64,000 nt of DNA, taken from positions 1,550,001 through 1,614,000 of the forward strand of contig NC_016026.1 of the NCBI RefSeq assembly GCF_000226315.1, read 5' to 3'. Position 1 is the stretch's first letter. Each line of letters starts with the position of its first letter. The notes below the pieces were generated by a model. It was not told the DNA's origin. It worked only from the letters and a program-made list of their open reading frames with translations, and did not search any database. The translations under genes and the position numbers were made by a program. The stretch is from Micavibrio aeruginosavorus ARL-13. Lineage in GTDB: Bacteria; Pseudomonadota; Alphaproteobacteria; Micavibrionales; Micavibrionaceae. Of this stretch, positions 9,452 to 22,699 are shown one piece after another.

Positions 9452-11038
9452 TTACGCCGCCGTGGCCGAATCCCGCAAACGCAGGATCATGTCGCGGCGG
9501 TTTTTATACAGCCCTTCCTCAATCCCCACGACATAGACGTGGGGATTTTTCAATCGGCGGTGGGCGGGGTCCAGCATTTTCAAACCCGCCATCGCCCGCG
9601 CCCGTGCCATATGCACATCTTCCAACGGGATCACCATATCCCCGGCCCGGAAAACGGACACCAATGGGCGATACACATGCGCCCCGGGGCCGAACCGTTT
9701 GCGGCGCGTATCATCATCACGACGAATGGACGTCAACGGATGTGTCAAAACGCCATCACGCACCGGATCCGTTATAAAAACGGGTAAAATTGTATCGCCG
9801 TTATAACGCACCGGTTGGTCCCCGTCATAAACGACATAACGGATCACATCCAATTCACCGGGGATGGATGTTTTGATGGATTGTTCCGACAATTTGATGA
9901 CATCACGCATGAAATTCGCATCCAGATGCGGCATTTTGCCCGCCTGCACCTGTTGGCGCATGGCATCGATTTCGGATTGGGATAAATCCGCCCCGAACAC
10001 CGCACCCAATTTGTACACGCCCCCCAACGCCGGTTGCGCCTTGGACGTGGCCAGATTTGTGCCAACGCCCCACATATCAATACGCCCGCCTTCCTGACGA
10101 ATGGCCAGAATGGTTTCTTCGTCCAGATCGTTGGACGCCACAATTTTCGCATCGGTAAACCCGGCGGCATCCAACAACGCGCGCGCCCGTTTTGACAGAT
10201 ACGCCAAATCACCGGAATCCAGACGAATACCCTTCATCGTCATGCCAGCGGATTGGCACGCGGCAATCGCGCGCTTAACGCCCTGCACCGTGTCATAGGT
10301 ATCCACCAAAAACACGCCGTTATGCGGCATGGCCCGGGCGTAATCGGCGAAGGATTCAACCTCGTCCTCATACACCATCACCCATGCGTGGGCGAATGTT
10401 CCGGTGGATGGAATGCCATAGGCCAAATCGGCCTGCATGTTCGATGTGCCCGCAACGCCGCCAATCCATGCGGCGCGGGATGGTTCCAACCCGCCAATAC
10501 ATTGGGCGCGGCGCAAACCAAATTCCAAAATCGGCGCGCCACCGGCGACATCCGTTAAGCGCGCGGCCAATGTGGCGAACAAGGATTGCGAATTGATGAC
10601 GTTCAGCAACGCGGCCTCGACCATCAAACATTGCCACAACGGCCCATGCACACGCATGATGGGTTCATCGGGGAAGGCCAATTCCCCCTCTGGCATGGCA
10701 TCGATGCTCAGTTCCAGCTTTGCATCCTTCACCATGGCGATAAAATCGTCGGTGAACAAACGATGGTCCACACCCGTGGTCGGGTCGGTGACCATTTTAC
10801 GTTTCATCCATTCGATTTCGTCCGGTCCGAACCGCCAGTTTTGCAACCATTCAAAAACAATATTCTGCCCCGCCGTGACCAGATAGGCCCCGCCAAACGG
10901 GTTTTTCCGAATAAACGCGTGGAACGTCGTATTCACATTGTGTTTGCCGTTGGTAAAGAAGGCCTGTGCCATGGTCAGGGCATATTGGTCCCCCCACAAA
11001 ACGCTTTGCCGGGCCAAAGGATCTTTGAAATCGGGCAT
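9452..11038 (-). CDS. pncB: Nicotinate phosphoribosyltransferase (NAPRTase/NAMPT family)
   Basis: Converts nicotinate and PRPP to nicotinate mononucleotide in NAD salvage. It is a 528-aa cytoplasmic enzyme. Visible family features are the N-terminal [27 protein letters not shown], the EFGLRRAQ segment, FLVDTYDT and the phosphoribosyl-site [14 protein letters not shown]. It is divergent from nadE across 73 bp, so the two NAD genes probably share a control region. Confidence 0.9.
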
Positions 11039-14475: not shown

Positions 14476-15249
14476 ATGACCGGAACAGATCGCACACAAA
14501 TCGAACCCCCACAGGACCACGGGCCTGTGGTTATTCTCGTCGGCGCACAGATGGGCGAAAATATCGGTGCCGCCGCACGCGCGATGATGAATTGCGGCAT
14601 TACGCGTATGCGTCTGGTGGCCCCGCGTGATGGATGGCCCAATCCCGCCGCCGAAGCCATGTCATCCGGTGCGCTGGAATTGATGCCCCCGGTCGAAGTG
14701 TTCGCCACAACGGCGGAGGCCTTGGCCGACATCAACCATGTTTATGCCACCACCGCCCGCCCCCGCGATATGGTCAAACACGTTTTGACCGCACGCGGGG
14801 CAGCGGAAGACATGCACACACGGATCAAGTCTGGTGAAAAAACGGCCATCCTGTTCGGCGCGGAACGCAGTGGACTGGCCAATGACGATGTGGCGCTGGC
14901 TCAATCGATCATCACCATTCCGCTGAACCCCGGTTTTTCGTCCCTCAATCTGGGGCAAGCCGTACTGCTGGTCTGCCATGAATTTATGAGCGCGGGCGAC
15001 GCCACGCCACCGAAACAATTGCCCACCGGTGATTCCGCCCCGGCCACGCACGATGCTCTGGTCAATTTGTATGAACGGCTGGAAGATGCGTTGGATGATG
15101 CCGGGTTTTTCCGTTCGCCGGAAATGAAACCCTCCATCGTTCGCAACCTGCGCAACATGCTGGGCCGCGCCGAAATGACGGAACAGGAAGTCCGCACCTT
15201 CCATGGGATGATTTCCGTCCTGGCCGGGCGCCGGACCGGGCACGACTGA
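14476..15249 (+). CDS. trmJ: tRNA 2'-O-methyltransferase (TrmJ, SpoU family)
   Basis: SAM-dependent SPOUT enzyme that 2'-O-methylates position 32 of tRNAs. The 257 aa include VILVGAQMGENIGAAARAM (motif 1 with its conserved Asn), the motif 2 segment AILFGAERSGL and the motif 3 segment IPLNPGFSSLNLGQAV that form the knotted cofactor site. The C-terminal extension of about 80 residues is typical of TrmJ dimers. It is downstream of gltX, separated by a palindromic repeat. Confidence 0.88.
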   Translation: MTGTDRTQIEPPQDHGPVVILVGAQMGENIGAAARAMMNCGITRMRLVAPRDGWPNPAAEAMSSGALELMPPVEVFATTAEALADINHVYATTARPRDMVKHVLTARGAAEDMHTRIKSGEKTAILFGAERSGLANDDVALAQSIITIPLNPGFSSLNLGQAVLLVCHEFMSAGDATPPKQLPTGDSAPATHDALVNLYERLEDALDDAGFFRSPEMKPSIVRNLRNMLGRAEMTEQEVRTFHGMISVLAGRRTGHD

Positions 15250-19111: not shown

Positions 19112-21019
19112 TTAGAACTTAACGCCAAACCCGACAAAGCCGACATACCGATCTTCATAACGATCACGAGACAAATCAGCCCCGGCTTTCAGCGAGCGCG
19201 AATTATCCAGATCGTAACGCATCTCCGCCCCCAGACCAACATCAAACGTCGTCAAATCCCGCCCGTTGATGGTGGTGGCGCTTCCTGCACCGACAAAGCG
19301 TGTTGTATTGGAGGCCTCTTCAAGCTCCCACTGCTGGCCGACATAGGGACGCAGTTTAACAGCGAACGCCCGGCCATCTTCAAACTTCATTTCGCGTTGT
19401 ACAGCCATGCCAATTTTTGCCGATGCGGTCGAAAACGTATCCGCCGAAACCGTCATGTTCATGGCCCCGCCACCCTTTTCCGTGTAGCCATCCGTACGCA
19501 CCGCAGTGTAAGACACAGACGCAAACGGTTCGAATTCATAATCATCATGAGCGTATAAACGGCTGAGCGCCGCCGTCATGCTGCCGCTCCACCCGTCATA
19601 GTCACTGCGCGGTGATTGCGTCACGCCACCGACATCAACGTGGCGTTTAGATTCGTAATCGCCATAACCAACCATGGCCATGCCGCTCAACTTTGTAGCG
19701 CCGAAAAGCTTCTGTCCATATACGCCGATATTATAGTTATATCCTTCGGTATCGCCTGCATGGTTATCGACATCGACGTCCGTACGGAACATGCTGCCCA
19801 GAACGCCAATCATATGCGTTTGATCAAGCGCGAATTCTGCGCCCGTGACGAAACCACGGCTGAACGTGTCATACCCCATGGTGGATGTCGTGGCATCGCC
19901 ATTGGCACCCGCCACGACAGCTTCGGTCCAGACCGCTTTCTGGCCCGGCTCATACCGGTCATAGGCACTAGCAGACAACGATAAAGACGGTGCCTGCCCC
20001 ACTTCCGTCATTGCCTTCGCATTGCTATCCGCAAAAATCCAGCCAGACATATCGGCCTGACCATCGCGGAAATTCAGCGACGAAACAGAACCCACATTCC
20101 CTAGAACCGTGCCCACCTTTTCAACCAGAACATTGGTGGTTTGCCCGCTGGCGGACATCATGGTTTGGCCCGTTACGCTGGTATTCACGGGAAACACCTT
20201 TTTCATCACCTGTGCAATTTCTTCCGGCGATGTCAGGGTGTTCAAATATGTGCCGATAGTTGCGCGATCGCCGCCATTATTATCAAATCCGTCGAAATAA
20301 CTGGCCAGTCCTTCCGCAGGCGTGCCCGTTGACGTCTGCACATACCCACCGCTGAAAAAACCGATTGGAACGATGGCGTAGCGAATAACCCCACCGCCAT
20401 ACAAGACATCGCCGCTGCCCGTGCCGTAAAATGTAATAACGCTGAATGTCGCGGAATCATCAATCGCACCAACAAAAGTACGATCACCCTGCCCGGCGGC
20501 AGAACCCTTGTTATCAGCGCGTTGTGTCGCGGTACCCACCAAAATCGGCGTTCCGCCATCAAAGCTGATATACAATTCGGACGGATAGCAGCACGTGCCC
20601 CAATCCCCCAAATCAATACCAAATCCGTTGATTGGATTGTCGAACGTAAATGTCAGGCCGGATGTAACCTGTCCATTCGCGCTCATTTGAATGGATTGCC
20701 CGCCCGGCACGCCCGCAATCGCATTCGTACCCAGATATGTATTATCGATAGAGCGGTTCAGGCCATTGGTTGCCGTAATTGTATAGGCACCACGATCCCA
20801 TGTATTTCCGCCAACCAGCCCGCTGAGGGGATCGAGCGTCAACGTGCCGCTGGCACTGTTCACCAGATCATCGAATTCATCACGGCCATCGGGAATGGTA
20901 TCGAAGAAGGGAATAGGCTGAGCCATCGCGGACGCCGCTCCCATCATAACGCCCGCACAGGCGCCGGATAAAAGAATGGCACGGGACACAGAACGCGAGA
21001 TACGCTTCACAGAAATCAT
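19112..21019 (-). CDS. Autotransporter outer-membrane protein
   Basis: A 635-aa protein starting at MISVKRISRS, chosen because it begins a classic signal peptide ending SAMAQ. The passenger (about residues 35-320) has an Asp/Gly-rich beta domain with a NPINGFGIDLGDWGTCC segment that resembles carbohydrate-binding-like or choice-of-anchor domains. A helical linker (LNTLTSPEEIAQVMKKVF) leads into a C-terminal beta barrel of about 280 residues with alternating aromatic strands, ending in VGFVGFGVKF with the terminal Phe required for BAM insertion. Two adjacent Cys in the passenger are notable. Its function on the surface, such as adhesion, is inferred. Confidence 0.85.
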   Translation of the reverse strand: MISVKRISRSVSRAILLSGACAGVMMGAASAMAQPIPFFDTIPDGRDEFDDLVNSASGTLTLDPLSGLVGGNTWDRGAYTITATNGLNRSIDNTYLGTNAIAGVPGGQSIQMSANGQVTSGLTFTFDNPINGFGIDLGDWGTCCYPSELYISFDGGTPILVGTATQRADNKGSAAGQGDRTFVGAIDDSATFSVITFYGTGSGDVLYGGGVIRYAIVPIGFFSGGYVQTSTGTPAEGLASYFDGFDNNGGDRATIGTYLNTLTSPEEIAQVMKKVFPVNTSVTGQTMMSASGQTTNVLVEKVGTVLGNVGSVSSLNFRDGQADMSGWIFADSNAKAMTEVGQAPSLSLSASAYDRYEPGQKAVWTEAVVAGANGDATTSTMGYDTFSRGFVTGAEFALDQTHMIGVLGSMFRTDVDVDNHAGDTEGYNYNIGVYGQKLFGATKLSGMAMVGYGDYESKRHVDVGGVTQSPRSDYDGWSGSMTAALSRLYAHDDYEFEPFASVSYTAVRTDGYTEKGGGAMNMTVSADTFSTASAKIGMAVQREMKFEDGRAFAVKLRPYVGQQWELEEASNTTRFVGAGSATTINGRDLTTFDVGLGAEMRYDLDNSRSLKAGADLSRDRYEDRYVGFVGFGVKF

Positions 21020-21136
21020 ACAAAACACGGGGAACACTCCGACGCAGGACTGGGGCTTAACAAGCGAAAGAATTGTCCCACGCCGTCCCGGCTTTGTAAA
21101 GCGGGTACCGTTTTGTTTTAACAAGGAAATGTTGTA

Positions 21137-22525
21137 TTAGGGGGCTGGAGAATTGACCGGAGCCGCCCCGGGAGTCTGCGGCTTCATCTGCCGCATCATC
21201 CGCTTCGCCGCCATGTTCAGGGCGGTGGTGGCATCGTAATGCGCGGCCCAGGTTACCGTTTGATTGCATTTCAGTGCCACCATCACGATATCAACGCCGT
21301 TGACCAGTAACAAACGTTCGGCCATCTGGGGCATTTTCATCCGGCGGTCGCTGCACTCTTTACGCAAGGCACCAATATCCGTTGCCGGGTTGCGTTCATC
21401 CGCAAAATGGGGGGATGTTGTGTCCTGTTCCGCGCGATGGTTCGCCCATGTGACATGCCAACCGGGCTGCGTTGTATGGTCCTGGTTCGTGGCGGCTTGG
21501 TTAAAGTTTGTGGTGAGGCGCGAAACTTCCTTCGCGTCGTTCAGCTGCACAGTTTTTCCATCCAAATGACGCGTCATAATTTTCAGACCAAGGAAGTCAC
21601 GATATTTTTGCATCGGTGATGAAATTTTGGCGTAAGGTGGTGATGTCCGAATGATGGTTTCGATCACATCCAACGCGATGCGATTGCATTCGAGATCGAA
21701 ATTGAAATCCTTGGACACATGCAGAACCTTGAAAAATCCCTGCGCCGATTTGAATGGGGCGGGCAAATTGTTATCAACGAAATATTCCGCCGCCGCCAGA
21801 TTGGTCATGCGCATGATTTCATGGACCAGATCGGTGCCCTCATATCCCGGGCGGGGTGGGAATTCGGGCGCGGATGCGGGCTGAATATTATCGTTTACGG
21901 CCAGATTGTTGCAGATCTGCACCATATCATTTGTACGTTTTTCGTGCAGACGATGACCCAGATCGGTCCAGCGTTTTACATCCGCATCGCCCTTGGCCAA
22001 TTCGCGCACAATATCATTGTCATTGCACTGTTTCAGGTTTTCAAAAACCGTGCGTTCAATAGAACAGGATTGCAAATTCAAATCCGCGTCCAGAACGAAC
22101 GTAAACGTAACCGCCGGGCGTTTCTCCCCCTGTTGCAAGCTGATGCAGCTTTGCAGGAATTTGTAATTGAACAGCGGTTTGTCCACCCCAAAGGCCTTTT
22201 CAATCGACCGCGCAAAAATTTCCATCGGGTGTTGATTGGGGACCAGTGCGGGAACATCGGCGATACTGGATTGAATCATCCATCCACCATCATCCTTTGG
22301 TGTCATGAAAATTCCATCATCCAACAACCGTGCCCGCGGGTCATCGATGGTAATGCCCTGCACATGCACGCGGCCGGCCCCGTGCGTCAGCCCTTGCAAA
22401 CGGCCCGCCGCGTTAAAATCGATCAGAATGTCATTGGCTGTTACGGGATTATTGAACCGCGCCTGGCGCTCTTGCTGCTGGCGCGTGCGTTTTTGGTTGG
22501 CATTCTTGTTTTTGTTACGCTTCAT
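21137..22525 (-). CDS. RNB-domain (RNase II/R-like) protein with altered active site
   Basis: A 462-aa protein with a basic N-terminus and an RNB exoribonuclease core. Recognisable segments are the catalytic-loop equivalent ITIDDPRARLLDDGIF (residues 58-73), SSIADVPALV, ERTVFENL, the LVHEIMRMTNLAAAEYFVDN helix and SSPMQKYRDFLGLKI, equivalent to SPLRRYxDL. In RNase II the loop has four Asp (D201, D207, D209, D210); here D61, D69 and D70 match but the D207 position is Leu67. No cold-shock or S1 domains flank the core. It may be inactive, impaired or an RNA-binding remnant. Confidence 0.75.
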   Translation of the reverse strand: MKRNKNKNANQKRTRQQQERQARFNNPVTANDILIDFNAAGRLQGLTHGAGRVHVQGITIDDPRARLLDDGIFMTPKDDGGWMIQSSIADVPALVPNQHPMEIFARSIEKAFGVDKPLFNYKFLQSCISLQQGEKRPAVTFTFVLDADLNLQSCSIERTVFENLKQCNDNDIVRELAKGDADVKRWTDLGHRLHEKRTNDMVQICNNLAVNDNIQPASAPEFPPRPGYEGTDLVHEIMRMTNLAAAEYFVDNNLPAPFKSAQGFFKVLHVSKDFNFDLECNRIALDVIETIIRTSPPYAKISSPMQKYRDFLGLKIMTRHLDGKTVQLNDAKEVSRLTTNFNQAATNQDHTTQPGWHVTWANHRAEQDTTSPHFADERNPATDIGALRKECSDRRMKMPQMAERLLLVNGVDIVMVALKCNQTVTWAAHYDATTALNMAAKRMMRQMKPQTPGAAPVNSPAP

Positions 22526-22622: not shown

Positions 22623-22699
22623 TGGTGGGCCAGGCCGGACTTGAACCAGCGACCAAACCGTTATGAGCGGTCCGCTCTAACCAACTGAGCTACTGGCCC
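22623..22699 (-). tRNA. ileX: tRNA-Ile2 (CAU anticodon, lysidine type)
   Basis: A 77-nt cloverleaf including encoded CCA. The acceptor stem is GGGCCAG / CTGGCCC, the D stem GCTC / GAGC, the anticodon stem GACCG / CGGTT with loop CTCATAA, and the T arm GCTGG / CCGGC with loop TTCAAGT. The CAT anticodon could be Met or Ile2. The fully paired acceptor rules out initiator tRNA, and the variable and T region (TTGGTCGCTGGTTCAAGTCC) is the one seen in tRNA-Ile2, whose C34 is converted to lysidine by TilS. Confidence 0.85.

Follow-up and report, generated by a model that had tools for sequence, protein, structure and literature searches.

A short RNB protein of Micavibrio aeruginosavorus with retained metal aspartates and an apparently dismantled grip on the RNA end

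The short RNB gene and its active-site residues

The 64,000-nucleotide stretch of Micavibrio aeruginosavorus ARL-13 analysed here (the window; contig NC_016026.1, positions 1,550,001 to 1,614,000, or G000:C1:1550001-1614000 in our numbering, in a genome consisting of a single contig of 2,481,983 bases) carries on its minus strand a gene for a short protein of the RNB family, to which RNase II and RNase R belong. The host is described in its genome paper as an obligate epibiotic predator with "4 RNases" in the genome (PMC3189940). The gene and the parts of its product are as follows.

21137..22525, minus strand: coding sequence of the short RNB protein, ATG at 22525, stop codon 21137-21139 included, 462 amino acids
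22445..22525, minus strand: basic N-terminal tail, residues 1-27, modelled at low confidence (predicted local distance difference test, pLDDT, 50-69 for the block), no CSD by Pfam
21485..22444, minus strand: RNB fold, residues 28-347, from the predicted model and PF00773
22316..22345, minus strand: active-site motif D61-x5-L67-x-D69-D70, canonical form D-x5-D-x-D-D, by alignment
21695..21700, minus strand: F276-D277, a family-specific FD motif, from column counts
21602..21619, minus strand: SPMQKY, residues 303-308, canonical form SPIRRY, with Gln306 at the R500 position, by alignment
21176..21385, minus strand: C-terminal dsRBD-like domain, residues 381-450, at the position of S1, from the predicted structure with weak sequence support

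Compared with Pfam, the 462-residue protein matched RNB (PF00773) at E 2.4e-18 and 67 bits, for a cut-off of 29.3, over residues 58-259. No other Pfam family was found at E<=1, CSD and S1 included, and the NCBIfam exoribonuclease models matched the protein far under their cut-offs. The original prediction, made from the sequence alone, had described a recognisable RNB core without CSD or S1 domains, and the hidden Markov model search agrees with it on both points.

Residue equivalences were assigned by alignment to E. coli RNase II, to the paralogues of the same genome and to relatives. Three of the four acids of the DxxxxxDxDD tetrad are present, with D201, D209 and D210 of RNase II corresponding to D61, D69 and D70, while the second acid, D207, is replaced by Leu67. 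Arg500 of the SPIRRY motif is also absent, its place in SPMQKY being taken by Gln306. Both substitutions had been read correctly beforehand, the Leu at the D207 position and the change of the SPLRRY-type motif. The RNB segment is in addition shortened relative to RNase II. It is known that the first, third and fourth aspartates of the tetrad coordinate Mg, whereas the second touches the 3'-OH of the RNA (PMC8097288). In RNase II, Asp201, Asp207, Asp209, Asp210 and Arg500 are all important for activity, Asp209 most of all, since its mutation abolishes activity (PMC3293843), and Y253 and Y313 serve as substrate clamps (PMC12320835). According to a model, R847 of Rrp44, which we take as the equivalent of R500, touches the outgoing nucleotide at its phosphate (PMC3827031).

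A short RNB family in the Micavibrio order

The family was defined by searching 142 genomes of the order with a profile and taking the short-type RNB proteins that scored at least 78 bits. This yielded 12 proteins in 11 genomes, all matches being free of internal stops; the next matches scored at most 69.5 bits and lay mostly in frames longer than 550 amino acids. The short protein was found in all five genomes of the window genus and in both genomes of genus g24. D207 is absent from 11 of the 12, the window protein included, where it is replaced by Ile (6), Leu (3), Phe (1) or Arg (1). The twelfth, from genome G043, has the full tetrad and SPIRRY.

We then counted residues by column in the 11 short proteins without D207 and in 18 canonical RNB proteins, keeping G043 outside the count and G007, G001_x3, G004_x3, G017, G036 and G274 outside the canonical set, the first three of these by choice and the last three because they escaped the motif pattern used to select rows. 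The D207 column is non-acidic in 11/11 short rows and Asp in 18/18 canonical rows, and for this reason the change in the window protein is not a matter of chance. The R500 column is Arg in 18/18 canonical and 9/11 short rows, with Gln among the short proteins only in the window genome and in genome G002. D201, D209, D210 and S272 are kept in 11/11 short proteins, and the three metal aspartates persist down to about 20% identity. Y253 and Y313 are each kept in only two of the eleven, and the equivalents of E390, H416 and H484 are mostly lost. Out of 49 columns that are near-invariant in the canonical rows (17 or 18 of 18), just nine are retained by 10 or more of the 11 short proteins. As judged from these alignments, the metal-ligand site is retained in the family and the parts that grip the RNA end are dismantled. 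A candidate replacement for the missing acid is D277, whose column is acidic in all eight proteins of the core group defined below, in 8/11 short rows and in 1/18 canonical rows.

What kind of activity would be compatible with this pattern? An ordinary RNase II-type exonuclease of weak activity, in which the substitutions are tolerated, would agree with the RNB fold and with the retained equivalent of D209 (PMC3293843), and RNB proteins with minimal accessory domains can indeed be active, as in D. radiodurans and Haloferax (PMC12320835). However, both D207 and R500 are uniform in the 18 canonical rows, and the protein lacks the tyrosine clamps as well as a portion of the RNB domain, so that we consider such an enzyme improbable. 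In the main rival reading, the protein continues to act as a metal-dependent ribonuclease or phosphodiesterase but recognises RNA ends differently. The loss of D207 would remove the 3'-OH contact and turn the enzyme to other ends, short products or internal sites. The invariance of the three metal aspartates at such low identity and the Arg in 9/11 proteins argue for it, as does the published loss of such residues from Ssd1 and the majority of Zam proteins (PMC8097288, PMC9145284), and D277 could supply the replacement acid. The altered nuclease would nevertheless have to work with the equivalents of Y253, Y313, H416, E390 and H484 mostly gone as well and, in the window species and G002, with R500 lost; we regard it as possible but tentative.

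A third alternative, that the gene is a decaying and functionless relic, is suggested by the loss of several active-site residues and by its patchy occurrence, since only 11 of the 142 genomes searched have a short-type protein at the threshold used. The comparison of the window gene with its G002 orthologue gave a ratio of non-synonymous to synonymous change (omega) of 0.076 at a synonymous divergence (dS) of 0.97, with zero gaps over 462 codons. These values indicate that the gene is under purifying selection and encodes a maintained protein, and together with its presence throughout the window genus and g24 and with the lack of internal stops they make the already disfavoured relic highly improbable. 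Silent-site change between the two genomes was faster in this gene than in seven of the eight neighbouring genes tested.

In a 33-row tree of RNB proteins, in which several long branches were flagged, eight core short proteins cluster at a support of 96/95. The core, three distant members and the G043 protein (12 rows in all) form one side of a split supported at 100/99, with the remaining 21 RNB proteins on the other. No relatives of the window protein were found in viral contigs or in the wider genome contigs. A class-wide profile search of 385 genomes at E<=1e-20 returned only the window genome, G274 and G444, the last two with frames of 681 and 712 amino acids, and the G444 match has the canonical motif.

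The window genome also has two canonical RNB genes side by side (G000:C1:1936200-1939135, 65 bases between them). The first encodes RNase R with CSD2 and S1 by Pfam, and the second, downstream of it, a protein with RNB only. Among the genomes listed with a match in a search of 387 across the class, a single RNB protein was the usual number, and the window genome and G525 had three. Among the proteins kept out of the canonical count, those of G017, G001_x3 and G004_x3 have Asp at the D207 place. The G007 paralogue, a 516-residue frame on the minus strand, has Ser at D207 and SPLQRY, with Gln at R500; it is apparently an independent loss of both residues in a different RNB paralogue of the same family of bacteria. 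The G036 protein (710-residue frame, minus strand) reads DGENPAEIDD, with Glu at the D207 place as in Dss1, and keeps SPLRRY. In the G274 protein, from another family of the class (681-residue frame, minus strand), SPLRRY is present and the D-x7-DD pattern was not found, which is possibly another changed active site. Change at D207 outside the short family therefore occurs but is rare in the sample examined.

Two further features of the window mark the genomic place of the gene.

22623..22699, minus strand: tRNA-Met (CAT) gene, separated by 97 bases from the ATG downstream of it, at the same place in G002
14476..15249, plus strand: TrmJ-like RNA methyltransferase gene, below the NCBIfam cut-off

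A trmJ-like gene adjoins the short RNB gene at seven of the 11 loci without D207. At six of these seven gltX lies within about 6 kb, and the seventh, G004b, is cut by a contig end. In the window genome and G002 the short RNB gene stands beside tRNA-Met, about 6 kb from trmJ; the G004a gene lies at a contig end beside gltX, and the G003 copy is on a 7.8-kb contig without trmJ or gltX. Two distinct short RNB genes are thus found in G004, each at the end of its own contig, with gltX as the neighbour of one and trmJ as that of the other. They may form a tandem pair that occupies a single slot and is split between the contigs. Of 60 regions sampled across the order, 47 have gltX within about 4 kb of trmJ, and no short-family match below E 1 was found in any of the 60 (L103 and L141 being shortened by contig ends). 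Open reading frames of G025 and G124 in the trmJ-gltX slot were considered as hidden orthologues and rejected, as they did not match the short family. Since the pairing of gltX and trmJ is found in sampled regions without a family match, the short RNB gene appears to have been inserted into a gltX-trmJ neighbourhood that predates it, and this placement gives no direct functional clue.

On the other side, the RNB stop is followed after 12 bases by the start of an autotransporter-barrel gene on the same strand (19112-21124); its product scores above the NCBIfam autotrans_barl cut-off, and a TTG start is possible. A promoter and terminator scan around the short RNB gene gave a signal no higher than in shuffles. 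As to the host, NCBI taxonomy places Micavibrio under Bdellovibrionota, and the genome paper compares it with alpha-proteobacteria (PMC3189940).

Predicted fold and the C-terminal domain

The structure of the window protein was modelled by AlphaFold from a 10-row alignment, with a pLDDT of 83 and a predicted template modelling score (pTM) of 0.80. Residues 28-347 of the model matched RNase R at VIA Z-scores up to 25.6, RNase II at 22.4-24.0 and Ssd1 at 21.8, adding a predicted fold to the sequence match for the RNB core.

Residues 381-450 form a helix-strand-strand-strand-helix arrangement in the model. The 13 dsRBD rows listed by VIA, from RNase III, TRBP, R2D2 and others, match this region at Z-scores of 7.2-8.0, a range weighed below, and superpose with a root mean square deviation of 1.2-2.4 Å over 64-75 residues in 10 of the 13, the others reaching 3.4 Å. 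In Foldseek, all seven non-RNB rows listed were RNase III or 6vlz_c, which we take to be a dsRBD-containing chain. Sequence comparison gave the following picture. One relative (L011) has a sub-threshold Pfam dsRBD match at E 0.15. With hhalign, the C-terminus gave E 0.02-0.15 for dsRBDs and 0.6-0.95 for three S1-region sequences, none significant; an S1 domain, the other candidate for this position, was set aside on these values. For a custom dsRBD profile, 1,636 pieces of the fetched loci served as decoys, true dsRBDs and family members being among them; only G123 (E 0.39) and G004a (E 1.2) ranked near the top, neither significantly, and most other short proteins ranked low. Because the sequence methods do not confirm the domain, its designation as dsRBD-like rests on the predicted fold, and we describe it as a predicted dsRBD-like domain.

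The G043 locus offers a suggestive arrangement in this respect. Its short RNB gene with the intact tetrad (L062, 8113-9522) is directly followed, after a gap of 70 bases, by a stand-alone gene for a canonical dsRBD (9593-9853; PF00035, E 5.2e-11). This pair is a possible two-gene forerunner of the predicted RNB-dsRBD fusion.

Interpretation and comparison with known systems

The reading that we favour, at a probability of roughly 0.52, is that the window gene encodes a non-canonical RNB-derived protein that probably binds metal and RNA and is no longer a processive 3'-5' exonuclease. It is preferred because much of the RNA grip has been lost and, in the window species, Arg500 as well. In such a scheme, an RNB paralogue of the Micavibrio lineage would have ceased to be a canonical RNase II/R when, by alignment, it lost the 3'-OH contact D207, the stacking pair Y253 and Y313 and a portion of the RNB domain; the window genome and G002 have, by the same alignment, also lost the phosphate-contacting R500. 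RNA would be bound through the RNB body, the C-terminal domain or both, and metal would be held at the old active site. The product may thus be an RNA-binding or adaptor protein in which hydrolysis is absent or residual, with RNase R and the second canonical RNB protein presumably performing the bulk of 3'-5' decay in the same cell.

Several observations weigh against this preference. The metal aspartates in 11/11 and R500 in 9/11 short proteins speak for continued selection on some metal-dependent chemistry in the family. The absence of CSD and S1 is not special, as the second canonical RNB protein of the window genome is also RNB-only in Pfam. As for the C-terminal domain, the dsRBD Z-scores of 7.2-8.0 fall within the range (<8) in which VIA warns of a merely common arrangement, and Pfam returned no dsRBD match for the C-terminus of the window protein. 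The usual motifs by which a dsRBD contacts double-stranded RNA are GPxH and KKxAK, and neither is present in residues 381-450 as read from the sequence; binding of double-stranded RNA by this region is therefore not implied. A more specific proposal, in which the RNB barrel and the dsRBD-like domain would combine with a working metal site that has no need of a 3'-OH, giving an enzyme or RNA-processing factor for ends or sites closed to RNase II/R, seems to us unlikely on present evidence.

The original prediction had suggested an RNase-derived RNA-binding or regulatory protein. The loss of grip residues under purifying selection favours this proposal, but the three metal aspartates are invariant and catalysis may have been retained, so that it stands only in part. 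The analysis adds to it the minus strand, the three intact acids, the order-level family, the clamp loss, the predicted dsRBD-like tail and the purifying selection.

The short proteins form a graded series of RNB active sites, from an intact one (G043), through nine proteins with D207 lost and the metal site and Arg kept, to the two of the window genome and G002, in which both D207 and Arg are lost. This is a natural series for asking which residue parts an RNB exonuclease from an RNA-binding protein. It could be misleading to annotate the window protein as an active enzyme of the RNase II type.

How does the protein compare with known systems? RNase II and RNase R share with it the RNB domain, the D201, D209 and D210 equivalents and the fold (Z 22-26). 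It differs from them in that no CSD or S1 was found, the equivalents of D207, R500, Y253 and Y313 are lost and the RNB segment is shorter. Closer in size is D. radiodurans RNase II (PDB 2r7d, 469 amino acids, fold Z 23.4), which has a near-minimal RNB architecture, as does Haloferax RNase R. Both are reported to be active despite minimal accessory domains, and the predicted dsRBD-like domain sets the window protein apart from them as they are described in the relevant passages of PMC12320835, where none is mentioned. The mitochondrial exonuclease Dss1 (PDB 6f3h) also has its second Asp replaced, there by the conservative Glu (PMC8097288), whereas the short family has Leu, Ile, Phe or Arg.

Cyanobacterial Zam is, like the window protein, an RNB paralogue of bacteria whose active site has changed and whose genome also encodes a canonical RNB protein; its authors propose that it is without nuclease activity and perhaps RNA-binding (PMC9145284). 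In the window protein, by contrast, three acids of the tetrad are kept that do not vary within its family, no CSD was found and the C-terminus is predicted to be dsRBD-like. Ssd1 and Sts5 (PMC8097288, PMC8934651; PDB 7am1) are cases in which an RNase II fold lost its nuclease active site and came to serve RNA binding, and the window fold matches Ssd1 as given above. Ssd1, however, is described as lacking the catalytic residues within an RNase II domain architecture with blocking loops, whereas the window protein keeps its metal aspartates and had neither CSD nor S1 found. Loss of metal and catalytic residues is reported for Ssd1 and most Zam proteins (PMC8097288, PMC9145284); no such loss of metal-coordinating acids was seen here, D61, D69 and D70 being kept in 11/11.

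Among the open-licence literature matches examined, no paper on an RNB plus dsRBD or dsRBD-like architecture was found, and in an open-licence search for bacterial RNB pseudonucleases the matching titles concern fungi or yeast. Bacterial RNB proteins with a degenerate active site (Zam), fungal pseudonucleases and short RNB proteins are already known. What appears to be new in the Micavibrio family is the combination of a kept metal site, an end grip lost stepwise, a body in which CSD and S1 were not found and a predicted dsRBD-like tail.
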